This document shows positions 9,389 through 54,372 of a stretch of 62,785 bases of DNA, one piece after another (position 1 is the stretch's first letter; every line of letters starts with the position of its first letter). Source of the DNA: a virus; IMG/VR virus record IMGVR_UViG_3300035128_000038, positions 1-62,785 of that record; one strand, written 5' to 3'. Made by a program: the position numbers and the translations under genes. The notes under the pieces are model-generated. The model was not told the origin of the DNA and did not search any database. It was given only the letters and a program-made list of their open reading frames with translations.

Positions 9389-9600
9389 TTTGTCCGTTTA
9401 TCAGTTCAGGCGTTGACAAGCCGGGAATGGAAGATGGTTTTGTTCGGGAATGTGAAAAAGAAAACTGCGGCCTCTGGTCAACCAAACACTTAAAATGTTC
9501 CATTACCGCCTTGGCCGAAAATACTTCGTCTGTGGCGGTGGAAAATAGAGAACATGGTGATCATGTGCGGCCCCTATTTATTAAGGAAGCAAGGAGATAA
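9385..9600 (+). CDS. Small Cys-rich phage protein
   Basis: The ATG at 9385 overlaps the nuclease stop. The 71-residue product begins MICPFISSG and has CEKENCGLWSTKHLKC, giving a likely metal-binding cysteine set, as in many uncharacterised proteins found between phage exonuclease and annealing genes. It may be a zinc-binding accessory factor. It ends two bases before the annealing gene. Confidence 0.65.
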   Translation: MICPFISSGVDKPGMEDGFVRECEKENCGLWSTKHLKCSITALAENTSSVAVENREHGDHVRPLFIKEARR

Positions 9601-9602
9601 CC

Positions 9603-14335: not shown

Positions 14336-14484
14336 TGCACCCAATTAGGATTAATGCTTCCCAAGAGAAAATAGATAAAAGCAGCTACTCCTCCTAAGAA
14401 AGTTATTATTGCCCCTATCAGGAAAGTTAAACTGCGTCGTTCCCAAGGCCAGATTATCCATTTAGGTTTGCCAAAGAGATTCAT
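14332..14484 (-). CDS. Small membrane protein (50 aa) of the lysis cassette
   Basis: The ATG at 14484 overlaps the TGA of the endonuclease/exonuclease/phosphatase gene. The product has one long hydrophobic segment (about 19-40, LTFLIGAIITFLGGVAAFIY) after a short tryptophan-rich and basic N-terminus. It could be an antiholin or a second holin, given the holin-like gene one gene upstream. Confidence 0.55.
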   Translation of the reverse strand: MNLFGKPKWIIWPWERRSLTFLIGAIITFLGGVAAFIYFLLGSINPNWVQ

Positions 14485-15113
14485 ATCTCTACCAACACCC
14501 CCCGGTGAACATAGCTACCATCCGCCCGCCTATCCGATGCATCAGGCAATACCACCCGGAAATAATCTCTCAATGGATCACGCTGCTTACCCCTTATCCA
14601 GATATGATCAGCGCCGTCAAAACCAAAAACCTTAAAACCTGCATTAAATAAAGGTCGGCAGTATTCATGGTAATAGGGGATATTAAAATCCCCTGCGATA
14701 ATCTCTATGCGGCTAACAGGTAACCTATCCATGAAAGCCAAAACTTCAGGCACTTCAAATTTCTGATCCGGCTGGGTGCTGCTGAGGTGGACGTTGACCG
14801 CCGTGACCCCATTAATCCAGCATCCCAAAGCAACCCGCCGCCAATCACCATAAGGAGAAGACAATTCTTGCTCTTTGGTTTGGTAGATAGGGGGCTTAGA
14901 TAAGATGCCTAATTTCCACCCGCCCCACCACCTTTTCTCCATCCTGACGGTGCGGACCTCCCAGCCCCTCGAGATATGCTTGATGGAGTCCCACCCGAAA
15001 AGCCCGATGCCCTCTTGATAAAAGCATAGGTCTGGATTTTCCTGCTCAAGAAAACGGCGCACTTTGCGAAAATCTCCAGCAAGGTGCCCCATGTTGAAAG
15101 TGAGGATTTTCAT
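14481..15113 (-). CDS. Endonuclease/exonuclease/phosphatase (EEP)-family enzyme
   Basis: A 210-residue protein with the EEP fold motifs in order: TFNMG (N7), QEG (E34), VNVHLSS (H109), AGDFNIP (D142, N144), GADHIW (D169, H170), and an SDRRADG end where most members have Ser-Asp-His; His203 lies further on and might substitute. The family cleaves phosphodiesters in DNA, RNA, lipids or phosphosugars, using magnesium. It is coupled by overlaps to the holin-like gene upstream and the small membrane gene downstream, so it is expressed with lysis. The substrate is unknown; host nucleic acid or membrane phosphodiesters are possible. Confidence 0.8.
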   Translation of the reverse strand: MKILTFNMGHLAGDFRKVRRFLEQENPDLCFYQEGIGLFGWDSIKHISRGWEVRTVRMEKRWWGGWKLGILSKPPIYQTKEQELSSPYGDWRRVALGCWINGVTAVNVHLSSTQPDQKFEVPEVLAFMDRLPVSRIEIIAGDFNIPYYHEYCRPLFNAGFKVFGFDGADHIWIRGKQRDPLRDYFRVVLPDASDRRADGSYVHRGVLVEI

Positions 15114-35635: not shown

Positions 35636-36751
35636 TTATGCCTCCTGTGCTTTGGGACCGTCCACATGCGCCTGTCCGACCCCTCTGTAATCGTCCACAT
35701 GGACGTTAAAAACATCCAGGCCTGCCTTGGCCTTATCCAGTTCGACCACTCCTTTGTACGACCTGCTGCCCAGCCACCAGACCGCGTAGCCAATGAGCCC
35801 CGGATGGTGGGCCGCCGGGATTTCAGTAACTGCATCAGGGCTGTTGATGTTTAACTCCAGAGGCTTCCGGGCCACATCCAGGAGAAGGTTGCCGCTTTTG
35901 CCATAAATATTGGCGATGGTTCCCAGATAGCTACTGAGGAAGTAGGATTCTTCGTCGGTGGCATCAATGACCACCCCATACTCGCTCATGGGAACCTGAA
36001 AACTATCTCCCAAGTCCCATTGGTTATCCGAGCCCCCGGATAAGGTGACGTTTATCCGGTCATTGGTGGCCTCGGCATCCTCAATGGAGGTTATGAGCCC
36101 ACCAGAGCCGTCCGTGGTGTTAAAAACCATGTGGCCCACGGCTACACCCAGAGTAGTGAAGTCACGTCCGTCAGCGTCCACCAGGTAAGCCGTCCCTGAG
36201 TATCCACTGGCAATGTGTGTCCCGGTAATATTGCCTACATTGGTAAAACCCGTGGCGGTGGTGACCACCCCATATTCGTCCCCGGTCCAGGCGGTGCCAT
36301 CGGTGGTAGGTATGGGACTAACCCCCACATGAAGGTTATTTCCAGCCCGATAAGAGGGAAAGCAGTATTCCGGGTCGCCAGTATCACCACGATAATAGGG
36401 ATTAATGCGTTTCATGGCCGTCCGGTCCCGGACCATTTCCAACTCTTTGTAGTCGTAGCGGTTATTGGTCTTGTAAAAAGCGCCTGATATGACCCTAAGA
36501 CTGTTGAAGGGAAGACGGTAGTTTTGCCAGTCGGCCTTAACCACGATGATGGTGGGCATAAGCAGGCAGCCGGTGAGAAAGGCGAACCGCTCCTGACCGA
36601 AGTTAAGGGCCTTGACCACATCAGCATTGGGGTAACGGGTTGTGTCATCCTCGGCCACCCCGAGCAACTTGCGGGCTTCGTACATCATTTCCTGGGTGGA
36701 CAAACCCTCGAAATAGGCGCCGTAATCAGCTTGAAAAGGGGTTACAGACAA
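35636..36751 (-). CDS. Neck/connector-like virion protein B, paralogue of protein A
   Basis: A 371-residue protein that aligns with the previous one over most of its length (NYRLPFNSLRVISGAFYK, ELEMVRDRTAMKRINPYYRGDTGDP, LHVGVSPIPTTDG) and has the same insertion at about 176-260 (TGTHIASGYSGTAYLVD ... DSFQVPMSEYGVVIDA). The paralogue pair suggests a hetero-oligomeric ring or two stacked rings at the portal. It lies 3 bp before the other gene and 10 bp after the third module carrier. Confidence 0.65.
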   Translation of the reverse strand: MSVTPFQADYGAYFEGLSTQEMMYEARKLLGVAEDDTTRYPNADVVKALNFGQERFAFLTGCLLMPTIIVVKADWQNYRLPFNSLRVISGAFYKTNNRYDYKELEMVRDRTAMKRINPYYRGDTGDPEYCFPSYRAGNNLHVGVSPIPTTDGTAWTGDEYGVVTTATGFTNVGNITGTHIASGYSGTAYLVDADGRDFTTLGVAVGHMVFNTTDGSGGLITSIEDAEATNDRINVTLSGGSDNQWDLGDSFQVPMSEYGVVIDATDEESYFLSSYLGTIANIYGKSGNLLLDVARKPLELNINSPDAVTEIPAAHHPGLIGYAVWWLGSRSYKGVVELDKAKAGLDVFNVHVDDYRGVGQAHVDGPKAQEA

Positions 36752-39741: not shown

Positions 39742-40119
39742 TTAGGGCTCGTATTCAATGACGATAATGACGCTGGCCGCCGTGTCAAAATTGCAGTCGT
39801 CAATCTCCAGACAGGGAATCCATCTTACATTGGTCCAGAAAGGTTCCTTGGTGACCCCGCCATCCGTACTTTTTTGGAAACAGAACTTGGGTCCAGTTAC
39901 CGACCCGGCCCTGAGCATGAAATAATCGTCCGTAGCCGAAGGCCACATCTTCACCGCGGTTATCTTGATGCCATCAGGAAAGGCCGTAGCACCACTCCAA
40001 TCGGTATCAAGAACGGTAAGTACAATAAGGCCAGGGACGGAAGTATCTGCCGCCGTGGTGGCCAACAGAGGCGTGGCCATCAAGCAGACAATCAGGACAG
40101 AAAGGAGAAATTTTCTCAT
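39742..40119 (-). CDS. Small secreted protein in the structural operon
   Basis: A 125-residue protein with a clear signal peptide (MRKFLLSVLIVCLMATPLLA, cleavage near LLA-TTA). The mature part has three cysteines and strand-forming segments (VPGLIVLTVLDTDWSG, DYFMLRAGSVTGPKFCFQK, SVIIVIEYEP). It ends exactly where the stabilisation gene begins. A signal peptide in the centre of a head-tail operon is unusual. It may be exported to the periplasm or act as a membrane-targeted assembly factor. Confidence 0.7.
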   Translation of the reverse strand: MRKFLLSVLIVCLMATPLLATTAADTSVPGLIVLTVLDTDWSGATAFPDGIKITAVKMWPSATDDYFMLRAGSVTGPKFCFQKSTDGGVTKEPFWTNVRWIPCLEIDDCNFDTAASVIIVIEYEP

Positions 40120-40131
40120 AATTCTTACCTC

Positions 40132-40458
40132 TTACTGAAAGTAGTAGTAGGTTACGTTCAGTGTCACGGTTCCTGAAAGGGCGATGAAATTTGTGTTCGA
40201 TAGGGTACTGTAACCTTTTAGTTCCAGAGTTTCCTCTGTGGCCAGGAGCATCCCTACCGCCGTGGTCGGGTCGGTGCCGTCGCTCCGGTAGCGCAGACTA
40301 CCATCTTCCGGCACCACCACCACCTTATGGGCGCTCTTGCCGTCGTAATCCCCGGAAGTAGGTTGCAGTTTGGTAGAGGTAAAACCCTTGGCTGTGCTGG
40401 AAATTGATATTTGCTCAAAATCCCCCGCCACTAATTGATCGTCCCAAAGATTCGGCAT
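40132..40458 (-). CDS. Small structural protein, possible decoration
   Basis: A 108-residue, strand-rich protein (VAGDFEQISISSTAKGFTS, LLATEETLELKGYSTL, GTVTLNVTYYYFQ) with few charges, like small head-decoration or capping proteins. It lies between the glycan cassette and the small secreted protein. Its strand pattern resembles the other decoration-like products near the coat gene. Confidence 0.5.
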   Translation of the reverse strand: MPNLWDDQLVAGDFEQISISSTAKGFTSTKLQPTSGDYDGKSAHKVVVVPEDGSLRYRSDGTDPTTAVGMLLATEETLELKGYSTLSNTNFIALSGTVTLNVTYYYFQ

Positions 40459-40470
40459 GACGCTTGTCTC

Positions 40471-42171
40471 CTATGGCTGATATTCTTTCATGGGCCCCAA
40501 CCTTAATTTCTCTGCCGGCGGCGCCTCGTCTCCCCAAATGCTGGCGTAATATTTCTTGTTTTTGGTGTGCAGTTCCAAATAATTATGCGGTTTATTGTTC
40601 GGATGGGCCAGATGAATGACAACCAGGTCGTCCCGATGCACGAAGGGAACCTTGGCCCTTCTGAGCCGTTGCCGGAAATCATCGTCGTCAAACCCCATGC
40701 CCTTGGCGTATTCCTCATCAAAGCCGCCGATGGCCTCGTAGGTCTCCCGGGAAAGGGCGGAGCAGAAATGAACTTCAACATTGCGGTACTGGCTGTGCTG
40801 ATACCAGTGGCCCGGGGGCAGTTTGTCGCCCGGGTTCAGATCAGTTTCTTTAATGGCAAAGCAGGAGCAGACCACATAGCAGTTCGGGTTTTTGGCGAAC
40901 TCCTCGTCCAGCCCACCCAGCACGTTGGACCGATGCACACACTCGGGATTGGTGATAATCATGTAGTCGCCGTTGGCCATCTCCACACCCTGATTAAAGG
41001 CGGCCGCAGGGTTCCAGGAGTCCAAGGACCCTCCCTGCACCACCCTGATATTTATCTTGGGGCTGAACTCCTTGATGAGGTTTTTGAGAAGATAATTTTC
41101 CTGATTTACCACCGCACACTTGGCGTCATTGATGAGAATGACCTCGTAATCGTGTCTCTGGGGATAAATTCTCTCCAGTGACATCAAGGTGGATCGCAGT
41201 TGAGTTGACCGCTTGTAATAGGGCATGATGAGGCTGTATTTAACCGGGACATGCAGCGTGGGATTAATAGTTATGCTTTGAGAACCCACGTCGAAGCCAG
41301 CCTTGAACAAAGCCCACCGAACCCCACCCATGCACTCGTCGGCCCTAACCTTGTTAACGCTGGTCCATTCGGCCTCCTTGAGACAGGATTGCTTTTGAGC
41401 TGCAAACCAGTGAACCCCGATAGTGTCCCGGGTTACATGCAGCAGTGAACTGTCTTCCCACAAGGCAACCGGCTGAGTATGCACTCGTTCAAAGGGATAA
41501 ACCGCATGTTGGGGTATCTGGGCAATGGTGCTCCCGGCGGCCCTGGTTTCCCCCGGGGGAGCAAAGCGCACCAGAAGGTCAGTCCCCAAATCCTGGTATT
41601 TCAGCTTGTCGTCCAGGGCATGGGCCAGTTTAAGACCAATATTTTCCATACCTTGAAACAGTTGAGCACCCTGCTTGCCACCCAGAAAGCCGATGGCCTG
41701 CCACTTCAACAGATCAGGTACTTCCCCCCAACACAGGAGGGCATCGGCAGTCATATCCAACCTCAGGTGCTTCATGGGCCGGAAATAGATAATGTCGAAG
41801 TCAGACCAGAAACCGCCCATTTCGTGCAGGAGGCGCCACCGGTAAAGGTCAGACCGATGCACTTCGGTCATTCTCGGAAAGTCCTTGATGGCTGCCCGTC
41901 GTAAACTGACGTTGGGACCAGCCTCTTTGAGCCGGGGGAACCAGTCCTCGCCGGTGTAGCAACAATGTCCGTGCTCCATGGTGCGCCAAGTGGGAGAGGC
42001 CCCGATGTCCTGAGGGTGCCAGACGATGATGCGCCAGTCCGGATTGTGCAGGCTAAAGGTGGCCACAGTGAGCCAACGCAACCAGGAAAGAGGCTTGTCC
42101 CTGCCCCAATACAGGTGCATTATGAGCGGGATCTCTTTAGCACCTACGGAAGAAGGCATGTCGCTCCTCAC
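40471..42171 (-). CDS. Two-domain glycosyltransferase (GT32-like plus GT2)
   Basis: A 566-residue protein. The N-terminal half (about 10-290) is like the DXD sugar-binding type (GT32): IPLIMHLYWGRDKPLSW, DWRIIVWHP, then FWSDFDIIYFRP as DXD site and WGEVPDLLKWQAIGFLGG. The C-terminal half (about 310-540) is a GT-A family 2 domain: YSLIMPYYKRSTQLRSTLMSLE, DYEVILINDA, NPAAAFNQGVEMANGDYMIITN, and GFDEEYAKGMGFDDDDFRQRL. It should transfer two sugars in succession. It is last in the cassette and overlaps the TylF-type methyltransferase gene by 35 bp. Confidence 0.85.
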   Translation of the reverse strand: MRSDMPSSVGAKEIPLIMHLYWGRDKPLSWLRWLTVATFSLHNPDWRIIVWHPQDIGASPTWRTMEHGHCCYTGEDWFPRLKEAGPNVSLRRAAIKDFPRMTEVHRSDLYRWRLLHEMGGFWSDFDIIYFRPMKHLRLDMTADALLCWGEVPDLLKWQAIGFLGGKQGAQLFQGMENIGLKLAHALDDKLKYQDLGTDLLVRFAPPGETRAAGSTIAQIPQHAVYPFERVHTQPVALWEDSSLLHVTRDTIGVHWFAAQKQSCLKEAEWTSVNKVRADECMGGVRWALFKAGFDVGSQSITINPTLHVPVKYSLIMPYYKRSTQLRSTLMSLERIYPQRHDYEVILINDAKCAVVNQENYLLKNLIKEFSPKINIRVVQGGSLDSWNPAAAFNQGVEMANGDYMIITNPECVHRSNVLGGLDEEFAKNPNCYVVCSCFAIKETDLNPGDKLPPGHWYQHSQYRNVEVHFCSALSRETYEAIGGFDEEYAKGMGFDDDDFRQRLRRAKVPFVHRDDLVVIHLAHPNNKPHNYLELHTKNKKYYASIWGDEAPPAEKLRLGPMKEYQP

Positions 42172-42838
42172 CGGCGATTAAAACCGTCATTTCCTCCGGC
42201 CGTTCGGCCAGAAACTCCTCACAGGCCAGCCGGACCCCCGGCAGCCAATCCGTGGGCGCCACCTTGCGCCTGGAGTTCTTGACGTAAGGATTTTCCCCGT
42301 AATATCTGGTAATCAGTTCGCACACGTCCGGGCGGGCGTAATCATCCACCAGGACGATGGCCCCCGGGGCCAGCCGGGGGTAAATTGCGGTCAGCCCCTG
42401 GCAAGTGCTGCTATACAAATCTGCGTCAAGGTGCGCAAAGCAGATGCACGGTGGGAGGTGCTTCTCCAGGGTGTCACAGAACCAGCCGTCGATAATGGCC
42501 GGTTGGGGGAGGCCCAGGGTGGCGAAGCGGTCCCGGGTGTAGGCCGGATCAGTGGCGAAGTTCTCCGGGATAAGGGGACAGTTGCCGTCCTCCGGAGTGG
42601 GCACAGGCAGGCCCTTGAAGCTGTCAAAGAGCCAAAGGGTCCTGTCGGAGCCCCGTTCCTGAAGAGTTCTGGCCATGACCGCAGCAGTCATGCCGGTCAG
42701 GCTCCCCAATTCCACCACGTCGCCGGGGATTCCCAGGGACAAGACTTCGTTGAGCAAAAACCAGAGATTGACTCCCTGCTCGATGTTCAGGCAGCCTTGC
42801 TTTTGAAAAAACTCGGCTATGAATAGGTTTGATTGCAT
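42137..42838 (-). CDS. TylF/MycF-type O-methyltransferase
   Basis: A 233-residue protein with the pattern of macrocin-type sugar O-methyltransferases: DVVELGSLTGMTAAVMART (AdoMet motif I), LWLFDSFKGLPVP, CFAHLDADLYSSTCQGL and IVLVDDYARPDV as metal-binding segments. The family methylates hydroxyls of sugars. It lies between a two-domain glycosyltransferase and a second methyltransferase, so the substrate is likely the same glycan. Confidence 0.8.
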   Translation of the reverse strand: MQSNLFIAEFFQKQGCLNIEQGVNLWFLLNEVLSLGIPGDVVELGSLTGMTAAVMARTLQERGSDRTLWLFDSFKGLPVPTPEDGNCPLIPENFATDPAYTRDRFATLGLPQPAIIDGWFCDTLEKHLPPCICFAHLDADLYSSTCQGLTAIYPRLAPGAIVLVDDYARPDVCELITRYYGENPYVKNSRRKVAPTDWLPGVRLACEEFLAERPEEMTVLIAGEERHAFFRRC

Positions 42839-42872
42839 TATTGCTCAATATATTTTGATAGTTAATTTAGGT

Positions 42873-42913
42873 GCTTATCTTTTCTATTGCATAATTCTAT
42901 TGCATTCTATTGC
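42873..42913 (-). repeat. Short AT-rich direct repeats between methyltransferase genes
   Basis: On the minus strand GCAATAGAA occurs three times in close succession, separated by 1 to 4 bases, in an AT-rich gap of about 75 bp. It is one of few true intergenic gaps in the late run and holds no gene. It may be the scar of an insertion or recombination, or a binding site. Confidence 0.5.
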
Positions 42914-43540
42914 TTATTTGCCAAAACAAATCCAATGATTACCCCACTCCGTAGTCACCGGAGCGTGTTTTTGCCACAGGAACTTGCCCCCACATGATTT
43001 AACCAGGGGATGCAGTTCTATTTCTCGATAGGCGTTGTTGAACATCTTACCGTGCTTGCCATCCGACAGAACATCCTGGCCGCCCTTATGGTAGGCTGGG
43101 TCTCCAAAGAACTCGAACAGCACCTTTCCGTCAGGACGCAGGACCCGCAGGGACTCCTTAATTAAGTCTTTGGCATGTTCCCGGGAGAGGTGCTGAATCA
43201 CGAAGCAGGAGTAAATGACATGGAAGGTGTCCGGGAAAAAGGGGAAGTCCTTACCGTTGCAGGACAACAGCACCGGCAGGGGGCTTACCGCCCGGGCCAC
43301 CATCTCTTGCTTGGCCTCCTGGCACATCAATTCGGTGAGTTCCAGGCCGAACACGTTGTCAGAGAGTTTGCAAAACTGGCTGATTTCCCGGCCATAGCCG
43401 AAACCGATCTCAAGAACGAAGTGGTCTTTCTGGATCTCCAGCCGCTCAATCAACTGAGGCTGGCTGAACTGCCAGATTTTATCGGTGAAATAGGTCGGTG
43501 CCTGCTTAATCCACCAGTCTTTCCATTCCTTAAACTCCAT
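42914..43540 (-). CDS. Class I AdoMet-dependent methyltransferase
   Basis: A 208-residue protein with motif I LEIGFGYGREISQFC, motif II-like VFGLELTELM, DTFHVIYSCFVIQHL and post-motif SLRVLRPDGKVLFEFFGDP, the pattern of the Methyltransf_11 group. It ends CFGK. It is likely to act on a sugar or lipid-linked glycan. It overlaps the sulfotransferase-like gene by 11 bp. Confidence 0.8.
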   Translation of the reverse strand: MEFKEWKDWWIKQAPTYFTDKIWQFSQPQLIERLEIQKDHFVLEIGFGYGREISQFCKLSDNVFGLELTELMCQEAKQEMVARAVSPLPVLLSCNGKDFPFFPDTFHVIYSCFVIQHLSREHAKDLIKESLRVLRPDGKVLFEFFGDPAYHKGGQDVLSDGKHGKMFNNAYREIELHPLVKSCGGKFLWQKHAPVTTEWGNHWICFGK

Positions 43541-44192
43541 CTAACCAGTCTCCAAAGCCGCATGTCCTGAGTTTCTGTTCCGTCTCCGGCCAGTTGCGGA
43601 TAATTTGGCGCAAGGGCCGCGTCTCTTGGCGGTAGGTGTGGGGCTGCAGGTCCAGCACCGGCATCCCCAGATACTCCTGGATCTTCCGGATCTCCCCCGG
43701 CCAGTCGGCCACCAGGTCTTCGTAATAGACGTGCAAAGCCCCGGGAAAGGCCTTCTCGGCCTCGTATCGGTATTTGCTAATGTCCTTGACATCGCCCAGG
43801 AACTCGCTGAAATCGAACTCGATGGTCGGGGCGTAGCTGCGGGGCTTCTGGACTGAAAAAGTGGTCTGCCGGGCCAGTTCGTGGGACAGGTAGCGGCGCA
43901 GCAGGTTTCGGCGGTTCAGAATGAGGACCCGCTCCGGCGGGAAAAAGCAGCTCACGGCTTTCCAAAACCGGAGCAGGGACAGCTTGAAGGTGCTTTTGAT
44001 GAAAAAATCCCCCCATTGGTGGGTGATGGTCCCCCGGAAGGGGCGGTCCCGCTCCTGTTCATCCAGGAGGCGGTAGTCTCGCAGCACCATGAACTGGTCA
44101 AGGGCTCCATGATCCATGGAGAAGGAGCGCATGACCACTTTCGGGTGGCTGGACAGGGCCCATTCAACCATCTGCGTTCCGGACCTCGGCAT
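43530..44192 (-). CDS. Sulfotransferase-like protein, apparent start too late
   Basis: The product begins at the P-loop (PRSGT) of PAPS-dependent sulfotransferases. The ATG at 44192 would remove the first strand, whereas the upstream codons in the same frame read KKQFLIVTMPRSGTQM, exactly the expected strand-loop. No ATG, GTG or TTG precedes it closely in this frame. A run of nine A (44246-44254, minus) lies upstream in the end of the preceding gene; a one-base shift there would fuse the two proteins. Further motifs: RVLILNRRNLLRRYLSH (PAPS 3'-phosphate loop) and HVYYEDLVADWPGEIRKI. Function: sulfation of glycan or lipid. Confidence 0.75.
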   Translation of the reverse strand: MPRSGTQMVEWALSSHPKVVMRSFSMDHGALDQFMVLRDYRLLDEQERDRPFRGTITHQWGDFFIKSTFKLSLLRFWKAVSCFFPPERVLILNRRNLLRRYLSHELARQTTFSVQKPRSYAPTIEFDFSEFLGDVKDISKYRYEAEKAFPGALHVYYEDLVADWPGEIRKIQEYLGMPVLDLQPHTYRQETRPLRQIIRNWPETEQKLRTCGFGDWLDGV

Positions 44193-44224
44193 AGTTACGA
44201 TGAGAAACTGCTTTTTGATTTGCT

Positions 44225-46198
44225 CTATTGTCCATGGGATAACCGTTTTTTTTTGCGTAGCCGGTACATCTGCCAGACCGGCAGTACGTTATGACCAACG
44301 GCCAAGTGCTGGGCTACCTTTTCAAAGCCTATCCGGTCCAGTTCGTTTTCTAACTGCACGGTAGTTATGCTGTCTTCCCCGTTCAGGAACATGGTGCCCC
44401 CGTCCCATTTCTGATAAAACTGGAAATGCGCCTCCCCGCCCTCTTTAATCAGGCTGTGCACTACCTCGAAATATCTCTTGGCTTGCCACCAGGGCAGGTG
44501 CATCCACACGGCCACGGAGTACACCAGGTCGGCCATGGGCAGGTTGGGGATTCCGTTCGGCACCAGGTTCACCAGCCTATATTTGTCCTCCGGAACCCCG
44601 ATTTCTTGAAAACTGTGCTCCACCATGTCGATAAGGCCCTGATCCACCTCGAAGCCCACGGCCAGCTTGGCGCCGTTGATGATACAGTCCAGCAGGTATT
44701 CCCCCTTGCCACAGCCGAAGTCGAAAACCACCTTGTCCCGGGGGTCGAACTTGAACAGGGACATCCGGTGTTCAGGGTCTTTCTGGGCAGTAATCCAGAC
44801 GGCTCGATTTACCTCTAAGATTTCATCCTCAGTCCCATGATAAGCGTTCTGGTGCTTGTCAGACCACTCTTTCAGAACCCTACTATCAAACAATGGATAT
44901 GGCGGCTCATCCGGTATCTGGTCATAGGTCTGGAGACTGGAAATAGGACGAGGTTGAGGTTCCGTCCAGATGTCCGGGGGCAGGGTCCCGGGAGGGTACT
45001 TGTCGTCGGCCAGATGGTAGCAGGCACAGGCTGACTCGTTCAGTATCCAGTTCCGTTTGGCGTTGGCCTCAAGTTGGGATTTGTCGAAGGTATGGGCCCC
45101 GATCTTGACCATCATCTTCTTGTAATCCCAATACCCGTAGTGAATCACGCCGAAGGGTGCCTCCCGGGTGGTCTCCGGGGTGATATGGGCGGGATAAAGG
45201 CGCAGGTGGACCCCATGCTTGACCTCAATCTTGATGTCCGGCATTACCCGCCACAGGCGCACGAAGCGTGCCCGGGTAAATAGAGAGTCGGTTCTCACCC
45301 ACGTCTGGGACCGCCAGAGGTTAAGCTCAGGAAAACCGAAGGCATCCACCCCGTCAGGCCAGTGGTTGCAGAGAGAGCGCAGGCCCCCCATGGTGCCCCG
45401 GCGGTCAAGAACCTCATCGCAATCCAGCCAGAAAAGATGTGTGGCGCCTAATTCCAGCCCTTTTTCCAATAGCCTTTGCTTGTGCGCCAACTCGTTCATC
45501 TGGTCATTTTTCATGCCCTTAATGACATGGACGCCCGGGTAACTCTCAGCCACCTTTACAGAATTATCGGTGGAACCGTCGTCCCAGACAACGATATGAT
45601 CGCAGTAGCGGTATAGGTTATCCAGACATCGGTCCAGGTTGCCCTTTTCCACCTCGTTATACATGCAGACCTGACCCACCAGGACCACGTTGTCGGCCCT
45701 GGCCCTTTCCCAATACCCAAAAAAGCACATATAGGCCGACGGGAGGATCACCCGTTTAAAGTCAAAGCCGAAGTCCCGTACCGTCCAGAGACATTTGTGC
45801 AGGACATGGGGGTTGCCATGATAAAAGCCCTCGGGGTCGTTATGCGCGTCAAGATTCTCGTCCCAATACAGGGGCGTGAAGGCAATAACCGCCCTCTTGG
45901 CGATGTGCTTGGCTTGGGCCAGAATCTTCCGGGAACGTGGCTTGTCCAAGTGCTCTAGCACGTCAATCAGGAGTACCACGTCGAACTCCCGGTCGGTAGG
46001 CAGATCGGTGTCATTCAGGTCACAAAGATAATCCGGTTCTGCCGGCGGCCACACGTCCAGGGAATGATAGGAAGCTCCCCCCACCTTCCGGTAACGCCCG
46101 TCTCCGGAGCCCACGTCAAGAATCCTGTCAGTAGGCTTGATATACTTTCTCAGCCACTCCAGGACATGCGGTTCCGGCTGGTAGAAGGGTTTAACCAT
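44225..46198 (-). CDS. Methyltransferase-glycosyltransferase-methyltransferase fusion
   Basis: A 657-residue three-domain protein. Domain 1 (about 10-175): DRILDVGSGDGRYRKVG, LLIDVLEHLDKPR, a class I methyltransferase. Domain 2 (about 178-400): VVLVGQVCMYNEVEKGNLDR, HIVVWDDGSTDNSVKVAES, ATHLFWLDCDEVLDRRG, a GT2-type glycosyltransferase with DCD metal site. Domain 3 (about 480-645): VVFDFGCGKGEYLLDC and MADLVYSVAVWMHLP, a second methyltransferase. It ends RLRKKKRLSHGQ at a run of nine A. Fusion of transfer and methylation steps suggests capping of a growing glycan chain. Confidence 0.85.
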   Translation of the reverse strand: MVKPFYQPEPHVLEWLRKYIKPTDRILDVGSGDGRYRKVGGASYHSLDVWPPAEPDYLCDLNDTDLPTDREFDVVLLIDVLEHLDKPRSRKILAQAKHIAKRAVIAFTPLYWDENLDAHNDPEGFYHGNPHVLHKCLWTVRDFGFDFKRVILPSAYMCFFGYWERARADNVVLVGQVCMYNEVEKGNLDRCLDNLYRYCDHIVVWDDGSTDNSVKVAESYPGVHVIKGMKNDQMNELAHKQRLLEKGLELGATHLFWLDCDEVLDRRGTMGGLRSLCNHWPDGVDAFGFPELNLWRSQTWVRTDSLFTRARFVRLWRVMPDIKIEVKHGVHLRLYPAHITPETTREAPFGVIHYGYWDYKKMMVKIGAHTFDKSQLEANAKRNWILNESACACYHLADDKYPPGTLPPDIWTEPQPRPISSLQTYDQIPDEPPYPLFDSRVLKEWSDKHQNAYHGTEDEILEVNRAVWITAQKDPEHRMSLFKFDPRDKVVFDFGCGKGEYLLDCIINGAKLAVGFEVDQGLIDMVEHSFQEIGVPEDKYRLVNLVPNGIPNLPMADLVYSVAVWMHLPWWQAKRYFEVVHSLIKEGGEAHFQFYQKWDGGTMFLNGEDSITTVQLENELDRIGFEKVAQHLAVGHNVLPVWQMYRLRKKKRLSHGQ

Positions 46199-46592
46199 GC
46201 AAAAAGTTCTCTTTAAAGTCTTCTAAAAACGTTTGGAACATGGACAATTTGTTGTTTGTTTCTAATTCATAAGATACCTTTGTTGCATTAACTTTTTTAC
46301 CAAATTTATTAATATTTTTCTCAATAATGTTCTTTATCTCATCGCTTACATCATATATTGTTACTCTGATTGCTTTTTTACCAAAGAATGTCCCAAAATA
46401 ACTTGGTATAATAGAAAGTATCTTAATTCTTCCGGCTCGAACCCCAAAAAAATCGCCGGACAAACCATCTGGTTCGTAATATTTAATTTTTATTTCTTTA
46501 TTATAAAATGGTTGCAGTTCTTTTTTTAAATTTAAAAGACATTTTTCAAAGTCAAATACATTATGCTTTTTGTCTTTTAATATAATTTCCAT
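46191..46592 (-). CDS. AT-rich hypothetical protein
   Basis: A 133-residue protein rich in Lys, Ile, Phe and Asn (LLNLKKELQPFYNKEIKIKYYEP), whose gene is much richer in A and T than all neighbours. It overlaps the next gene by 8 bp and lies 2 bp from the radical-SAM gene, so it is in the operon. The composition suggests a recent transfer from a low-GC genome. The fold looks alpha/beta (AGRIKILSIIPSYFG, AIRVTIYDVSDE). The function is not known. Confidence 0.65.
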   Translation of the reverse strand: MEIILKDKKHNVFDFEKCLLNLKKELQPFYNKEIKIKYYEPDGLSGDFFGVRAGRIKILSIIPSYFGTFFGKKAIRVTIYDVSDEIKNIIEKNINKFGKKVNATKVSYELETNNKLSMFQTFLEDFKENFLHG

Positions 46593-46594
46593 GT

Positions 46595-47572
46595 TTACAC
46601 AAACCTTTCATGATTTAGCGGCAAGGACATCAACTCCAAAGCCCCATTGTAGTTGTCGTAATAGCAGCGGACACAATCCAGACCACAGAAATAAGTCTGT
46701 TTTTCCCAGATGTAGCCAATATCCTCCAGCCAGCCCATACGCATAGAAGAAACGTAGTCCCTTCCGGGCGTGTTTTGGGCATACTGCACGCCGCAACAGG
46801 GGTAAATGCCCCCGTCAGCCCCCACGACTGGCTTGAGAAGGCTTATTCGACAGTCCCGGCGACCGTGGACGTACTCGGCTCGGCTCTGGTAGATTACCTT
46901 CGAGTCATCAATACTGTATCTGTTTAGCTTTATTTTGGCTTCGTGGACCTTATGGGCCGCCTGGTTGATGTCCAGGATGTCGCCCACCAGTCTCACATGG
47001 GTAAAGGCTTTATGGAAATTGGCGAATCTCACTAGGTCCTCGATGTAGTCCCATCTCGGCTTTCTGGTCACCACATGGGAAAAGGCCCAATCCACATCAG
47101 ACCCTACATCCACAGCCCACTTGATACTCTGCCAATCTGGTTCCCGGTCGTCGCTGGAGGAAATGCGGCACCAGGTAAGGTGCCGGTACACATCATCATT
47201 CAGTTTTAGGAATTGGGTGCCATTGGTCACCAGACCCACTTTAATGCCCATGTCCTCTGCCAGCCAGGGGATTAAAGAGTTGATATAGGGATAGAGCAAA
47301 GGCTCCCCGCCGCCGGTGATGGTTACGGACTTGCACCCCAAGTCCATAAATTTTTCCATGGCAACAGTCAGGCGGTCAGGGTCAAGTTCAAGATTCTTGT
47401 CCCGCTCCGAACAGGAACAAAAGTCACAGTTTAGGTTGCACCGATTCGTCGGGTTCAGTTGAACATGAACGGGCGGGATAAACCCGCCCTTGATTCGCCT
47501 CACCAGGTCGGCGGCCTGGAGGAGTTTGGCCGGCAGGGTGTTGGCCGCGGTGTAAGAGGTTAAATCGTTCAT
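46595..47572 (-). CDS. Radical-SAM enzyme with C-terminal cysteine cluster
   Basis: A 325-residue protein with the radical-SAM motif CNLNCDFC (C45, C49, C52; C54 extra), TITGGGEPLLYP, and a C-terminal set of cysteines (DCRISLL, YPCCGV, FCGLDCVRC) like SPASM or twitch domains that hold auxiliary iron-sulfur clusters. It should start radical chemistry on a peptide, sugar or nucleotide. In the middle of a glycan cassette it may make a deoxy, epimerised or methylated sugar, or modify a peptide. It overlaps the next gene by 4 bp. Confidence 0.85.
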   Translation of the reverse strand: MNDLTSYTAANTLPAKLLQAADLVRRIKGGFIPPVHVQLNPTNRCNLNCDFCSCSERDKNLELDPDRLTVAMEKFMDLGCKSVTITGGGEPLLYPYINSLIPWLAEDMGIKVGLVTNGTQFLKLNDDVYRHLTWCRISSSDDREPDWQSIKWAVDVGSDVDWAFSHVVTRKPRWDYIEDLVRFANFHKAFTHVRLVGDILDINQAAHKVHEAKIKLNRYSIDDSKVIYQSRAEYVHGRRDCRISLLKPVVGADGGIYPCCGVQYAQNTPGRDYVSSMRMGWLEDIGYIWEKQTYFCGLDCVRCYYDNYNGALELMSLPLNHERFV

Positions 47573-48141
47573 CCGTACAGCCTCTTGGCCTTTCTGGACA
47601 GTTGACGGTGAAGAATTATGGGAACCTCGTCACGCCCTTTGAGGTCGAAGATCCTCACATACTCGAAGGGCAGGCGCTCGTAAAGCAAACCGTTGTTCAT
47701 CAGTTTTTCGATGGCCCACCCCAGGGCCCGTTGCTCTTTCCGGGGGCTGGGGTCGTCATGGTCGTGAATCCGTTTTACCCAGAGGTCCAGGAGTTTCCGG
47801 GTCTGGTGATTGTTGGCCAGATAAACCGTGCCTGACAGGTATTCCCGCTTTTTCTCCAGGTAGCCGGTGGCCACATCCGCGGTCATGTCCATCAAAAGCT
47901 CCGGGTAAGCCTGAATTTCAGCGTCGGCGTCCACCCACACCAGCGGGCGGTCCCGGTATTTGTCCAGCATCTTCTTGATAAAGATGGGCTTGAACAACGT
48001 GTTCTCCCGCCAGTCACCCAGGGGTTGATATTCCCTGATTTCATAGGACAGATTGAAGCGGTCCAGGCTGGCCTTGAGCCACAGGGCGGCATCCCGATAA
48101 AGCTGGTCGGGGGTGAAGCATGAGACAAACACCGGCTTCAT
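47569..48141 (-). CDS. Nucleotide-diphospho-sugar transferase-like glycosyltransferase
   Basis: I chose the ATG at 48141, overlapping the previous stop (ATGA), over a longer frame to 48219. The 190-residue protein has a GT-A-like fold with RPLVWVDADAEIQAYPEL as acidic metal and donor site, LSGTVYLANNHQTRKLLDLW and a C-terminal EVPIILHRQLSRKAKRLYG. It should add a sugar in the same pathway as its neighbours. Confidence 0.7.
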   Translation of the reverse strand: MKPVFVSCFTPDQLYRDAALWLKASLDRFNLSYEIREYQPLGDWRENTLFKPIFIKKMLDKYRDRPLVWVDADAEIQAYPELLMDMTADVATGYLEKKREYLSGTVYLANNHQTRKLLDLWVKRIHDHDDPSPRKEQRALGWAIEKLMNNGLLYERLPFEYVRIFDLKGRDEVPIILHRQLSRKAKRLYG

Positions 48142-48722
48142 GGCGCCCCCAACAAAACACGGGTGCGGCCGCTCAGACTTTTCACCTTGTCTTGGAACAC
48201 AATTTGAGCCCTTTCCCACTCCCTGAGCACCATGTCCTTGCCGAACTGCGTATGACGGCGCCAGGGAGGATCGAAATATCTCGGGGTGTCGGTACAGGGG
48301 ACCCCGGCCAGGACAATGCGGTCATACCCCATGAGCAAACCCACCAGGACCCCAAAGAGGCCGGAATTTCCCCCACTCCGGTGGATAGGCCACGCATGCG
48401 TTACGCCAGGGCGGTCCCCCCGGTTGGAATGGACTTCCATCGGTTTCCAGCCGTTGTTCTTGGCCTGGTAGGACTGGAAGAATCCCCACCCCGGCAGTTT
48501 CTCCGGATGCAGGGTGATCCCGTAATCCAGACGCTTGCCCCAGGGCCAGTGCATCATCAGGTCATTGATGGCCATGAGTTCAAACTCCTTCGGCTCAACT
48601 TCGGCCAGGTCGCTCCAGATACATTCGGCAGTACCCAGGATAAGGAGTTGTTGCCCGGTCTTAGTTCCCACCAAGTTAGGCAAATCCCCCTTGGGCTGCA
48701 CATACCGAAGCAGTTCTTTCAT
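48138..48722 (-). CDS. DUF115/MptE-like protein, first gene of the glycan cassette
   Basis: A 194-residue protein: QQLLILGTAECIWSDLAEVE, then FELMAINDLMMHWPWGKRLDYGITLHPE and SGLFGVLVGLLMGYDRIVLAGVPC. The pattern of a Rossmann-like glycine turn, INDLM and TLHPE resembles the DUF115 family found in glycan and pseudaminic-acid-linked modification clusters and in 6-hydroxymethylpterin pyrophosphokinase MptE. No substrate can be given. It is transcribed first in the cassette, just after a gap with a hairpin. Confidence 0.5.
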   Translation of the reverse strand: MKELLRYVQPKGDLPNLVGTKTGQQLLILGTAECIWSDLAEVEPKEFELMAINDLMMHWPWGKRLDYGITLHPEKLPGWGFFQSYQAKNNGWKPMEVHSNRGDRPGVTHAWPIHRSGGNSGLFGVLVGLLMGYDRIVLAGVPCTDTPRYFDPPWRRHTQFGKDMVLREWERAQIVFQDKVKSLSGRTRVLLGAP

Positions 48723-48784: not shown

Positions 48785-49042
48785 TTAGTCGAAGCCGATT
48801 GCAAACAACCGATGCTTCTTGCTGGATGTGGGTGCCGTTCCATAGGTGGCAGTACCACCAGACCATGTAATGGCCGGGTTGTAGCCGTCGGTTTCATCCT
48901 CGTTGCCAACCCAATGAGCCACCACATGCTTGAGCGGAATGGCTACGGTGGTGTCTCCTCCCACGGTGCCAGTAATTGTGCAGACGTAACCCTGCATATT
49001 ATCCCACCTGAAGGAGTGCCCATTTGTCTTGGTCAAGGCCAT
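48785..49042 (-). CDS. Small structural/decoration-like protein (85 aa)
   Basis: An 85-residue strand-rich protein (YVCTITGTVGGDTTVAIPLKH, AITWSGGTATYGTAPTSS) with few charges and regular Thr/Gly, like small coat-decoration proteins. It follows the coat and second decoration gene, 13 bp from the latter, and precedes the glycan cassette. It could be a capsid surface knob and so a possible acceptor of the glycan. Confidence 0.55.
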   Translation of the reverse strand: MALTKTNGHSFRWDNMQGYVCTITGTVGGDTTVAIPLKHVVAHWVGNEDETDGYNPAITWSGGTATYGTAPTSSKKHRLFAIGFD

Positions 49043-49055
49043 GGTTGCACCTCCT

Positions 49056-49568
49056 TTAGGTCAGGAAGTTGGTGAGGTCGGGCAACTGAAACCACCGGAT
49101 ATACAGAATGCCCACGAAGGTATCGCTACCCGCGCTGCAGGTGTAGTCGATGGACGTGCAGGTGCCGTCGGTCAGTTTGGGCATGATGATGGGGGCGGCC
49201 CCGTCGTCTTCCAGGTCGCTGCCGTCATCGCCCTGATAGAAAAATGCTCCCAGGGTCCGGGCGCTGACATAGTTCTGTTGAGACCCGGCGGTCACGGTAA
49301 AGGCCGGGACCACCCAGCCGGTGGAGGCGATGCTTACGCCTACCAGCAGTCCGTCAGCGTCATACCCAGACTCAGTGCCATTGCCCATACCGACATTCAA
49401 GGTCTCCCCGGAATCGGCCGTTTGGACATAGACCGCAATCGTAAACGGGTCGATCAGACAATTAGCCGGAATATCTACGCCGGTGTCGGTCTGGGAGTTG
49501 TCGTTATAGATGAGCTTGATAATCTTCTCAGTCCACTCAAAGCCGTTTAAACAGGCCTGTGTCGTCAT
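49056..49568 (-). CDS. Structural/decoration-like protein (170 aa)
   Basis: A 170-residue, Thr/Asp/Gly-rich, strand-forming protein (NCLIDPFTIAVYVQTADSG, STGWVVPAFTVTAGSQQ, DTFVGILYIRWFQLPDL). It lies 27 bp downstream of the coat gene, the usual place for head-decoration or head-completion proteins. Few lysines and no catalytic motif. Fold and role are inferred. Confidence 0.55.
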   Translation of the reverse strand: MTTQACLNGFEWTEKIIKLIYNDNSQTDTGVDIPANCLIDPFTIAVYVQTADSGETLNVGMGNGTESGYDADGLLVGVSIASTGWVVPAFTVTAGSQQNYVSARTLGAFFYQGDDGSDLEDDGAAPIIMPKLTDGTCTSIDYTCSAGSDTFVGILYIRWFQLPDLTNFLT

Positions 49569-49595: not shown

Positions 49596-50534
49596 TTAGG
49601 TGGTCAGGTTGTAGTGCCGGCCCTGGGCCTTGCGGCGGGTGCAGCAATACTGGCCGACCCAGATGAAGTTGCAGATCATCTTTTCGATCTGGTCTACCTT
49701 TTCCCGCCATTTCGTCCGCCGGAAGTTGTACTTGGTGTGGGTGTAAAAGCCGATGTAGTTCTCGTTGAACGCGTACATGTAGCCGGAGGGACAATAGTAG
49801 TCGCTGACTACGGGGACGCCCTCGACGTACACGTTCTTGAAACCCACATCCGCCATCTTGGCGTCTTCGTAAATCTGGCCGGGGATGAGCTGGCTCTTTA
49901 CGAAGCCGAACAGGGTCCTGGTGGTGGTGATGAGGGACACCTGGCCTTCCATGCCGTCCCCCACCTGCTGGGCAATCATCTGATCACGAATGAGGCCAAC
50001 GGTCAGCGGCTCACTGGTACTATCGTTGAGACCACAAATCCACTCACTCATGTCATCGGGGTCCACCTCGCCGTACTCGCTGGTGGTGGAGCAGATGGCC
50101 GGCAGGCCCAGGATGCCCCGGCCAGTGGCGCCGTAGGTGCTGTTGTTGTAAAGATCGTAGGCCATCCCTTCCCGCATGAGCTTGGGGGCTTTCATAACCC
50201 GGGACTCGATGGTGTCCACGATCTGTTGCTTGCCGGAATTGAGGGCAAAGTCGTCGATGTCCACTACCACCGGCTCTTCGTAGTAACCAACCTCGAAGTA
50301 AGCCGCGGTGGCGAACTCGTACTTGTTGGTGTCCGTGGTGGACAGGGCGTTGAAGGCCCCGCCCTTCCGGTTGCCGTAATCGAGCAAGGCCCGAATCTTC
50401 TTACCGCCGTCGTACTTCTTGGATTTGTCCATTTGGCGATAAAGAAGCACGTTACCCAGCAACACCTGGTCGTAAAGCACGGGGTCAATGTAATCGTGGG
50501 TAAGGGCCTCGATTGTCGTAACGTCAAGGGCCAT
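49596..50534 (-). CDS. Major capsid protein (HK97-type, P22/N4-like)
   Basis: A 312-residue protein without a delta domain or protease: ALTHDYIDPVLYDQVLLGNVLLYRQM at the start, a long helix (IVDTIESRVMKAPKLMREGMAYDLYN), and TRTLFGFVKSQLIPGQIYED and GVPVVSDYYCPSGYMYAFN, the pattern of coat proteins of podo- and siphoviruses. It follows a scaffold-like gene at 24 bp. It builds the icosahedral shell. Confidence 0.85.
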   Translation of the reverse strand: MALDVTTIEALTHDYIDPVLYDQVLLGNVLLYRQMDKSKKYDGGKKIRALLDYGNRKGGAFNALSTTDTNKYEFATAAYFEVGYYEEPVVVDIDDFALNSGKQQIVDTIESRVMKAPKLMREGMAYDLYNNSTYGATGRGILGLPAICSTTSEYGEVDPDDMSEWICGLNDSTSEPLTVGLIRDQMIAQQVGDGMEGQVSLITTTRTLFGFVKSQLIPGQIYEDAKMADVGFKNVYVEGVPVVSDYYCPSGYMYAFNENYIGFYTHTKYNFRRTKWREKVDQIEKMICNFIWVGQYCCTRRKAQGRHYNLTT

Positions 50535-52070: not shown

Positions 52071-52381
52071 TACCCCCTCCCAAACTGCGCCACCGCGGCA
52101 CCAGTGGCCTTGTGGACCCTGCTTTCCTCTTCCACCAAATCGTCCGGCAATTTCTTGGTGGCCAGGGTATAAGCCGCTTTACTGAGAATCAGCATAGACA
52201 GCTTGAGGTTGAGGGGATGGGATATTTTCAAGCCAATCCCGTCCGGCTGGTTGGGGTCAAAGATGGCCTCAATCGCCATCTTGGCGATGGTCTGTCCCGG
52301 TTGGGGCATGGCCTGATTATTTTGTCCGTTCCCGTTCACCTTCTGCTCCTTTCTCTGCCTTTTGGCTGCCTTGTGGCTCAA
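52070..52381 (-). CDS. Hypothetical protein (103 aa) next to the portal
   Basis: A 103-residue protein, basic N-terminus (KAAKRQRKEQKVNGNGQNN), then a helical part (LNLKLSMLILSKAAYTLATKKL). It overlaps the portal stop by ATGA. It may be a small head-assembly factor. No family is known to me. Confidence 0.6.
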   Translation of the reverse strand: MSHKAAKRQRKEQKVNGNGQNNQAMPQPGQTIAKMAIEAIFDPNQPDGIGLKISHPLNLKLSMLILSKAAYTLATKKLPDDLVEEESRVHKATGAAVAQFGRG

Positions 52382-54372
52382 TGTCTCGTCTCGAAATACG
52401 GCCCTTCGGCCTTTTTGAACTTCTCATAGTCGGCGTCTGAGAGACTGAGAAGCTGCTCAATCTGCATAAGCTCATCGTCTCTGAACAGACCCGTATCCTT
52501 GAGCCTCTGCATCGCCATACCCAGAGGGCCAGCCCGGAGACGCATAAGCAACGCCTGTTTGTTGGTGACCTCGGGGAAATATTCCAGTAGTGCCTCCACA
52601 TCAAGGGCGCCGCCCTCAAACAGCTTTAGCGCCTGTTCCCTCTGAGCCCAGCGGTTCGTGGGCAGGGTGGAACCAGCCTCTACCTTAAACCTGTAAGTTC
52701 CCTGATAAATCTGGTCGGTCCCGGTAAAGGGTATCTCTTCCTCGTTGTTGTCCCCGGTTCGAAGGATGCGCTGCACGGTAAACCAGTTCTGGCCCAGGGA
52801 GACGTACATCAACCCTTTTTCCTCAACGCTTTGGTCGATGCCCCGGATTTTTTCCCGGATTATTATTTGGGCCTTCTCCTGCAGGGTGGCGATGGCCACC
52901 CCCGAGGTGACCCCCGTGGGCCTGCGCCCTTCGCTCACATCGGTCAACCCGGTGATGATTTCCACAATGCGGAGCAGGGATTGAATATATTCGTTGTAGT
53001 CCTGTGGCAGGTTGGGAACGTCCAGAAACCGAATGCCGGCCGCCAGGGAAGCTACCGGCTCCCATATCCGAGAGGGAGCATTGGTGACGTAGAAGCGGTT
53101 GACCCCGCAGGCCTGCGGGAGAATAAGGGGTGGGAGGGCTGAGTTATCTAAATGTGCAGCGATCTTGGAGATTTTCTTGCTGATTTCAATGACCAAAGGC
53201 TCTATTTGTTCCACCACGCTCAAGCCGTATTCGGAAATGCCATCTGACAGGGAATACCGCTTGATAAACGGAAATTTGTCCCACAGGTAACATTGGCTGG
53301 CCACCTCACGGGGCAGGTCCGGGTTGATGCTCGGGTTGGGCTTGTCGTCCAGGACCAGCTCGCCGTTGTTGGTCACCGCGATGAAGCGGATGTAGCCAGG
53401 ATATTTGCTTTGCCAGACCGGCTCTATGGGGACTCTGACTGTCTGCTGGGTTGCAGGGTCAATCTGTTCTGCGAATAATTCCTCCCCCTCGGCCACTTCC
53501 TGGCCGGTGTTGGGATCAACCCAACTGCCGGAGTAGTCCTTGACCCACAATTTGACCACCAGGGCCCGCTTAACTTCGACGCTGCGCCCCGCCTGGTCGC
53601 TTCCCGGGGAATCCGGTTCGTAATCCGGTATGTCTGTCCCAGGCTGCCCCCCCACCAGACGGCGCTGGGTGGACTGCGTACCCCTGATTTTGTCCCGCTC
53701 TTCCCCAAACAGGTCGGAATATTCCCGGTTGTATTTCACCGAACCTTCTTCGATGTCCCAGGTCCGGTAAATCTCAGCCAGTTCCATGGGGTCAAGAATG
53801 GCCACCATGGGAGATTTCTGCAGGTCAACCGCCTTGGGCCAGAAAAGAGTCTGGAAAACATCCAGGAGATCTACCACCACCTCGCCGGCGCCGCCCTCAG
53901 CCCCGGGGTCGAAGCGCATCATCTCGGTGGCTAAACCGTACAGTTCTGAATTGTGGGTTGACTCCTGCAGGACGAATTGCTGATCGGTCTGCTCCCACCA
54001 ATCATCAACCGAAGCCTGCCAGGCTTTGGCGCCCTCGGTGGAAGCGTCTGAGGAGGGTCTGAGGTCAACCCGGGGTTTGTTGTCGGTGAGGTTGGCTTTG
54101 AGGGTATTGACTGTCTTGAACACCAAGTTGACGGGAACCTGGGCGTATGAGGACTTGGCCCGGAAAAAACGGCCGCGGTAGAGTTCGTGAAACCTCAACC
54201 AGAGGGAAGGCAACTGCAGGCGGTCCCGGTGGCGCTTCATAATTTTCATCATGCGCCAGCACCAGGGACCGACCTCTTTAGAGCCCTCGGGCGGGGGCTG
54301 AGTCTCCCAATCTGGATGCTGCCTCTGGTCGAGGGATTCTATGGCGGATAAAGAGGATGCCGGTTCAGCCAC
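52378..54372 (-). CDS. Portal protein
   Basis: A 664-residue protein of the portal class for podoviruses. Signs: an N-terminal region with helices (SYAQVPVNLVFKTVNTLKANLTDNKPRVDLRPS), LWVKDYSGSWVDPNTGQEVAE, a long helix (QCYLWDKFPFIKRYSLSDGI, EYGLSVVEQIEPLVIEISKKISKI), then a helical C-terminal half (SGVAIATLQEKAQIIIREKIRGI). The start is GTG at 54372, overlapping the previous small gene. It forms the dodecameric vertex for packaging and ejection. Confidence 0.85.
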   Translation of the reverse strand: MAEPASSLSAIESLDQRQHPDWETQPPPEGSKEVGPWCWRMMKIMKRHRDRLQLPSLWLRFHELYRGRFFRAKSSYAQVPVNLVFKTVNTLKANLTDNKPRVDLRPSSDASTEGAKAWQASVDDWWEQTDQQFVLQESTHNSELYGLATEMMRFDPGAEGGAGEVVVDLLDVFQTLFWPKAVDLQKSPMVAILDPMELAEIYRTWDIEEGSVKYNREYSDLFGEERDKIRGTQSTQRRLVGGQPGTDIPDYEPDSPGSDQAGRSVEVKRALVVKLWVKDYSGSWVDPNTGQEVAEGEELFAEQIDPATQQTVRVPIEPVWQSKYPGYIRFIAVTNNGELVLDDKPNPSINPDLPREVASQCYLWDKFPFIKRYSLSDGISEYGLSVVEQIEPLVIEISKKISKIAAHLDNSALPPLILPQACGVNRFYVTNAPSRIWEPVASLAAGIRFLDVPNLPQDYNEYIQSLLRIVEIITGLTDVSEGRRPTGVTSGVAIATLQEKAQIIIREKIRGIDQSVEEKGLMYVSLGQNWFTVQRILRTGDNNEEEIPFTGTDQIYQGTYRFKVEAGSTLPTNRWAQREQALKLFEGGALDVEALLEYFPEVTNKQALLMRLRAGPLGMAMQRLKDTGLFRDDELMQIEQLLSLSDADYEKFKKAEGPYFETRH

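Follow-up and report, generated by a model that had tools for sequence, protein, structure and literature searches.

Why should a phage carry, in the middle of its late structural genes, a long row of glycosyltransferase, methyltransferase and related genes? The question is raised by the whole IMG/VR record IMGVR_UViG_3300035128_000038 (62,785 bases; linear and possibly an incomplete genome), which is called the window below. An earlier note on this DNA had described a nine-gene cassette inside the late structural block, and all nine open reading frames (ORFs) are found there, arranged head to tail on the minus strand at positions 40471-48722, between the coat and decoration genes on one side and the tail genes on the other. 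Judged from sequence, the cassette is best read as a phage-borne virion glycan module with which the phage would decorate its own particle with modified sugars; the probability of this reading is put at roughly 0.6. The nine genes are listed below (GT, glycosyltransferase; MT, methyltransferase; SAM, S-adenosylmethionine; PAPS, 3'-phosphoadenosine 5'-phosphosulfate; aa, amino acids).

40471..42171, minus strand: two-domain glycosyltransferase, GT32-like plus GT2/GT7C (Pfam Gly_transf_sug 1.8e-5, Glycos_transf_2 1.5e-9, Glyco_transf_7C 4e-6)
42137..42838, minus strand: TylF/MycF-type sugar O-methyltransferase (Pfam TylF 2.3e-28; PDB relatives MycF and NovP)
42914..43540, minus strand: SAM methyltransferase (Pfam Methyltransf_11 2.3e-13; 62% over 208 aa to 14404-15042 of the related locus L064)
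43530..44192, minus strand: PAPS-type sulfotransferase (Pfam Sulfotransfer_3 2e-10, above cutoff; 41% to 3507-4232 of the related locus L062)
44225..46198, minus strand: methyltransferase-GT2-methyltransferase fusion (Pfam Methyltransf_23 2.5e-12 in two stretches, with Glycos_transf_2 3.1e-8 between them)
46191..46592, minus strand: AT-rich gene of 133 aa, function unassigned (27% GC versus about 52-59% in its neighbours)
46595..47572, minus strand: radical SAM enzyme, the signature gene of the module (Pfam Radical_SAM 6.6e-13)
47569..48141 (ORF listed to 48219), minus strand: DXD glycosyltransferase, PF03407-like (homologues; WVDAD motif)
48138..48722, minus strand: DUF115/MptE-like protein, which may be a glycosyltransferase that primes proteins (matched weakly by the profile of DUF115-like proteins from related cassettes)

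The enzyme labels proposed in the earlier note are borne out by Pfam for six of the genes, by homologues for the DXD glycosyltransferase and weakly for the DUF115-like protein. The TylF protein, 32% identical over about 150 aa to the TylF protein gp15 of mycobacteriophage Courthouse, keeps the metal-binding Asp cluster (LDADLY...DDY, aligned to PDB 5i10), the sulfotransferase has the 5' phosphosulfate-binding loop (PRSGT), and a further motif, GGFWSDFD, is also kept in the cassette. In the radical SAM enzyme the CxxxCxxC motif reads CNLNCDFC; its three cysteines are invariant in six relatives, and C-terminal cysteines are conserved as well in this six-member alignment. The two-domain glycosyltransferase is 47% identical over 565 aa to the product of L062 1168-3519 and 48% over 556 aa to that of L064 15039-17366. 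The fusion gene corresponds to genes that are separate elsewhere: its first methyltransferase part (MT1) is 57% identical to a stand-alone gene in L061/L062, and its GT2-MT2 part is 58% identical over 485 aa to a separate gene in L064.

Neither of the proteins encoded at 47569-48219 and 48138-48722 has a Pfam match. For the former, the ATG ending at 48141 is the probable start, which gives 190 aa and 4-nucleotide (nt) overlaps with both neighbours. It is 33% identical over 185 aa to the GT domain of a fusion protein in locus L069 and 40% to a homologue in phage LR756500, and the corresponding protein of locus L088 matches PF03407 (Nucleotid_trans) at 1.1e-5; the call as a putative DXD glycosyltransferase has weaker evidence behind it than those backed by Pfam. 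For the product of 48138-48722 the match to the DUF115-like group is weak (hhalign E 0.0011, probability 21%, only 32 columns), as are the structure models, with a predicted local distance difference test score (pLDDT) of 33 (single-sequence) or 50 (14-row) and a best PDB fold match no better than E 0.2; Paracoccus phage Pkon1 has a tblastn homologue immediately behind its coat gene. In L088 a DXD domain is fused with an MptE-like (DUF115) domain, which links the two adjacent genes that are their counterparts in the window. The AT-rich gene, to which the earlier note had given no function, has no Pfam, PHROG or phage match and no homologue in the related cassettes compared; it is probably a recent insertion.

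The spacing between neighbours in the cassette ranges from -35 to +75 nt, and promoter- or terminator-like sites in the region do not exceed the level of shuffled sequence. Since the genes overlap or nearly touch and such sites are no more numerous than in shuffles, a single transcript shared with the coat genes would be the simplest reading.

The module recurs in other phages. Searches of IMG/VR with radical SAM alignments yielded six loci and then 31, overlapping with each other and several of them fragments. Relatives of the radical SAM enzyme, 35-64% identical, occur in some 33 viral loci, almost all of which also have glycosyltransferases. In a profile search, glycosyltransferases were detected in 32 of 34 radical SAM loci versus 1 of 37 terminase-related control loci, figures that give a contrast with controls and not an independent or unbiased frequency, as the GT profiles were built from the same module loci. 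When 395 genomes from the phylum of a Desulfarculales metagenome-assembled genome (MAG) were searched with the fusion protein, a single match was obtained, to a contig of 33 kb in genome G174 (L061/L062; C20 in the tree). The contig represents a phage that has a portal, terminase and coat of its own, none of which shows similarity to those of the window even at E 10. The radical SAM gene is likewise present in one of the 395 sampled genomes of this likely host phylum, and its sole copy sits in the G174 phage. The module there follows the order of the window, with the radical SAM enzyme (63-64%), MT1 (57%), the sulfotransferase and the GT32-GT2 protein, and continues with an adenosine 5'-phosphosulfate (APS) kinase and a second sulfotransferase-like gene; APS kinase makes the sulfate donor. 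A diversity-generating retroelement (reverse transcriptase, bAvd and a tail-fibre-like gene; L062 6220-9580) adjoins the glycan module of this phage.

In L064 the coat gene is followed by a DUF115-like gene, the radical SAM gene, MT1, GT2-MT2 (58%), an unidentified 300-aa gene, MT11 (62%), GT32-GT2 (48%) and an ST-like gene. Decoration and coat genes precede the cassette in L064, L065, L068, L071, L078-L080 and L082; connector genes and then tail genes come after it in L068, L071 and L078-L080, which places the module between coat and connector there. The order in L078 is head decoration, coat, module, connector, tail completion, major tail and tape measure. Modules are also located in the head blocks of phages with other coat families, namely phrog_10 (L073), phrog_264 (L086), phrog_1650 (L072) and phrog_1328 (L095), while some adjoin tail sheath, tail fibre, tape measure or central fibre genes instead. 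With phrog_771 and the phrog_9953 coat of the window included, the module is associated with at least six coat families. In the radical SAM tree the window groups with C20 and L064 (98/94) inside a group of phages with phrog_771 coats (96/82), a nesting that fits exchange between phages; the module seems to have been transferred between phage lineages. A second lineage is represented by L088, L089, L091, L093, L094 and L069, in which a GT2/7 gene, a radical SAM gene and mostly a DXD-MptE-like fusion are found after a virion structural protein of ~1000-1400 aa.

In the stretches compared, none of the cassette genes has a homologue in four viral contigs related to the window in terminase (59-62%), portal and coat (G001-G003 and G014), and because these TerL and coat relatives are without it, the cassette is regarded as an added module. 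Scans for close relatives that used the coat, fusion or DUF115-like protein as query gave no matches. One control locus, L015, a terminase relative of the window, has coat-like and decoration-like genes followed, in the corresponding slot (8644-10451), by a radical SAM gene of another kind and a probable glycosyltransferase. A more specific proposal is that this is a mobile phage module with its own radical SAM enzyme as a marker, placing sulfated and methylated glycans on virion proteins, supplied in some members with sulfate donor by a phage APS kinase, and exchanged across unrelated capsids; it is offered tentatively, at less than even confidence.

What would the module act on? The late genes of the window are on the minus strand and read, in the order of that strand, small terminase subunit, TerL, portal, probable scaffold, major coat protein, two small probable decoration genes and the cassette, followed by two more small genes, a 799-aa gene, a Gp10-C-like tail gene and an SU10-type adaptor. 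The genes relevant to the target are as follows.

49596..50534, minus strand: major coat protein (phrog_9953, PHROGs 1.2e-26; tblastn matches to the coat proteins of MetMV, Mx8 and Mx9)
49056..49568, minus strand: probable decoration protein of 170 aa, candidate acceptor by inference (directly after the coat gene; S/T/N/G-rich; no family match)
48785..49042, minus strand: probable decoration protein of 85 aa, candidate acceptor by inference (position; S/T/N/G 0.38; no family match)
40132..40458, minus strand: small protein of 108 aa after the cassette, possible virion protein (position; S/T/N/G 0.35; no family match)
35636..36751, minus strand: SU10-type adaptor (connector), marker of the far side of the cassette (Pfam PF24175 4.2e-6)

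The place of the module next to coat and decoration genes, which is retained across capsid families, speaks for a virion protein as the target. No clear membrane span is present in any cassette protein of the window, and in nine related loci 10 of 80 ORFs lie above the membrane-span threshold, mostly members of soluble enzyme families; the lack of clear spans argues against surface conversion of the Gtr type and for a cytosolic acceptor. The acceptor is likely to be a head or decoration protein, the best candidates being the products of 49056-49568 and 48785-49042 or the coat protein itself. A Ser/Thr-rich C-terminal extension of the coat protein was also considered as the acceptor, but none is seen in the window coat protein.

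Several points weigh against the reading as a virion glycan module. The C-terminus of the coat protein is neither longer nor richer in Ser/Thr than in the cassette-free relatives; the late-block position suggests timing at best and not the target; expression in the lysogen is possible, given the integrase and the CII-like regulator; and the sulfotransferase frame, for which this assembly shows no canonical start, may be inactive in this virus. The earlier note had argued from position for late expression and modification of the virion, and this is strengthened by the homologous cassettes in head and tail blocks of different capsid families and by the lack of clear membrane spans. On the coat protein no C-terminal acceptor extension is seen, and sulfation and methylation are predicted from the enzyme families only.

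The sulfotransferase frame is open upstream of 44192 with no ATG, GTG or TTG, giving an open frame of 252 codons (44150-44330 inspected), and its first ATG falls between the first beta strand and the P-loop (PRSGT). The homologue in L061/L062 has extra residues before the P-loop and in-frame canonical ATG codons. The sole homopolymer of 9 or more in the window is located nearby:

44246..44254, minus strand: A9 run, close to where the fusion gene ends and just upstream of the sulfotransferase frame

Translation may begin at a non-canonical codon or involve slippage, or the frame may be truly broken or wrongly assembled. A programmed frameshift at the A9 run joining the MT-GT-MT fusion to the sulfotransferase is not favoured, as no stimulatory RNA fold is found downstream; it is further disfavoured by the GT2-MT2 homologue in L064, which ends at nearly the same point, and by the sulfotransferase homologue in L062, which is a separate gene. 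The irregular frame, together with the unrelated AT-rich insertion, is what could be expected of a decaying or passenger cluster with no current function in the window virus. The remaining frames, however, are intact, their motifs are conserved and the genes are tightly coupled, and many phages retain the module and exchange it, so that decay appears improbable.

Another reading is that the cassette alters the surface glycans of the host (lipopolysaccharide or capsule) during infection or lysogeny and blocks the adsorption of other phages, or re-adsorption at release. Such a change is a well-known role of phage glycosyltransferases; the Gtr clusters responsible for O-antigen conversion in temperate phages encode membrane-bound enzymes and are often located near the attachment site. 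The window encodes an integrase and a CII-like regulator, and cytosolic enzymes using SAM or PAPS could work on lipid-linked sugar intermediates. The cassette shares with Gtr clusters the presence of phage glycosyltransferases, but those of the window are predicted to be soluble and are placed in the late block: there is no flippase and no membrane-anchored bactoprenol glycosyltransferase, and clear membrane spans are absent from the window cassette. Pfam detected neither GtrA nor GtrB there, and the one weak GtrB-like PHROG match (0.006) covers the GT2 domain only. Moreover, the cassette is ~36 kb away from the integrase and lies amid structural genes both here and in many other phages, and a host-surface role is judged unlikely.

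Position bears in the same way on two other readings. TylF and SPASM-like radical SAM enzymes are found in natural-product and peptide pathways, and the fusion gene has a weak match to the SunS peptide S-glycosyltransferase, which would suit a small secreted molecule or a modified peptide used in infection, with no protein-bound glycan; but no scaffold synthase, precursor peptide or exporter was recognised and the tie to structural genes is recurrent, which makes such a product very improbable. Least probable of all is hypermodification of the phage DNA by sugars, with their methylation or sulfation as a later step. Virus-encoded DNA glycosyltransferases are known (cited in PMC12619734), but no homologue of a hydroxymethylase or thymidylate synthase was found among the scanned ORFs outside the cassette, a scan that did not cover some small ORFs of a record that may be incomplete, and the modules stand beside structural genes in phages of several capsid families.

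If the cassette is indeed a virion glycan module, its enzymes could act as follows, each step being assigned from the enzyme family. The cassette genes would be transcribed together with the coat genes, and the DUF115-like and DXD enzymes, a pairing suggested by their fusion in L088, would act in the cytoplasm and prime a virion protein with a first sugar. The glycan chain would be lengthened by the GT2, GT32 and GT2/7C domains, the methyltransferases would cap the sugars, and the sulfotransferase would add sulfate from PAPS, while the radical SAM enzyme would modify a sugar, e.g., by oxidation or epimerisation. The resulting coat of modified sugars may shield or stabilise the particle, or alter its encounters with cells and surfaces outside the host.

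How does this compare with known systems? The primary study on mycobacteriophage virion glycosylation is reportedly that of Freeman et al. 2023. Glycosylation of capsid or tail-tube proteins by phage glycosyltransferases has been reported for the mycobacteriophages Che8, Corndog and Myrna, with the glycans at the C-termini of the coat and tail-tube proteins and, unlike what is predicted for the window, with no sulfation or radical SAM chemistry in the available text of these accounts (PMC12363180, PMC11256854, PMC12619734). As in the proposal made here, phage-encoded glycosyltransferases modify virion proteins in those phages. A similar arrangement of genes is that of the cluster J mycobacteriophages (Omega, Courthouse), in which an insertion of 8-10 genes with glycosyl- and methyltransferases lies between the coat and head-tail connector genes (PMC3706429). 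It shares with the window the genomic slot, several glycosyltransferases, one of them a two-domain chondroitin-synthase-like protein, and methyltransferases, one of them fused to a GT; the first gene of the insertion, Courthouse gp15, is the TylF relative mentioned above. The cluster J phages differ in their hosts and capsids, and neither the annotated stretch nor the available part of the published description contains a sulfotransferase, APS kinase or radical SAM gene (PMC3706429).

The chlorovirus PBCV-1 likewise has a virus-encoded pathway of coat glycosylation with a multi-domain glycosyltransferase-methyltransferase protein, but it is a eukaryotic algal virus with N-linked glycans and unrelated genes (PMC4691112). 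Glycan clusters with GT and methyltransferase genes are also present in phage LR756500, the T4-like cyanophage SynMITS9220M01 and the pelagiphage HTVC008M; the first has a sulfotransferase, as in the window, and in the other two a remotely related radical SAM gene adjoins sugar or methyltransferase genes. Unlike the window cassette, these clusters are not coat-adjacent in the stretches seen and carry genes for the synthesis of KDO-type or heptose sugars. In LR756500, a 462-kb phage, the cluster (L060 8596-19834) contains a GT29 gene, a sulfotransferase, two methyltransferases, a pyruvyl transferase, a DAHP/KDO8P-synthase family gene and a cytidylyltransferase. The statement in the earlier note that no phage system with this set has been described must be narrowed, as the cluster J insertion (PMC3706429) and mycobacteriophage virion glycosylation (PMC12363180) precede it; in the part of the literature covered, no described phage system was found that combines a phage sulfotransferase with glycan or radical SAM genes, nor one with both sulfotransferase and radical SAM.

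The rest of the window provides some indications of the host. TerL belongs to phrog_675 (6e-100) and the portal to phrog_156 (3e-27) in PHROGs. Terminase relatives at 64-67% are present in Desulfobacterales, Desulfarculales and deltaproteobacterial MAGs, and for this reason the host is probably of the Desulfobacterota type, i.e., a bacterium of the sulfate-reducing type. The Methanosarcina virus MetMV gives the best-scoring annotated match to the coat protein (49596-50534) and the sole annotated match to the portal (52378-54372). An archaeal host, prompted by these matches, is not favoured in view of the giant protein with an SLT transglycosylase domain and the terminase relatives in Desulfobacterota-type MAGs; given such relatives in bacterial MAGs, the host assignment of MetMV is perhaps worth checking. 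The giant protein (20214-32069, 3951 aa) combines the SLT transglycosylase with a strawberry-notch type helicase and is probably an injected multi-domain protein. Just past the cassette, a 125-aa gene (39742-40119) has a signal-peptide-like start (KD 2.21), which is odd for a structural block. In a Desulfarculales MAG (L055 9896-19845) a related terminase is located near an integrase-like gene with no detectable portal homologue, perhaps as part of a satellite or prophage remnant.

Relative to the known phage systems found, sulfation, radical SAM tailoring and wide recurrence would be new. Known phage virion glycosylation is that of a few mycobacteriophages, and here a broad family of late-block glycan modules is proposed in uncultured phages. 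The analysis puts names to the genes, provides a signature enzyme and acceptors that can be tested, and is relevant to why phages would coat their particles with sugars outside any animal host.

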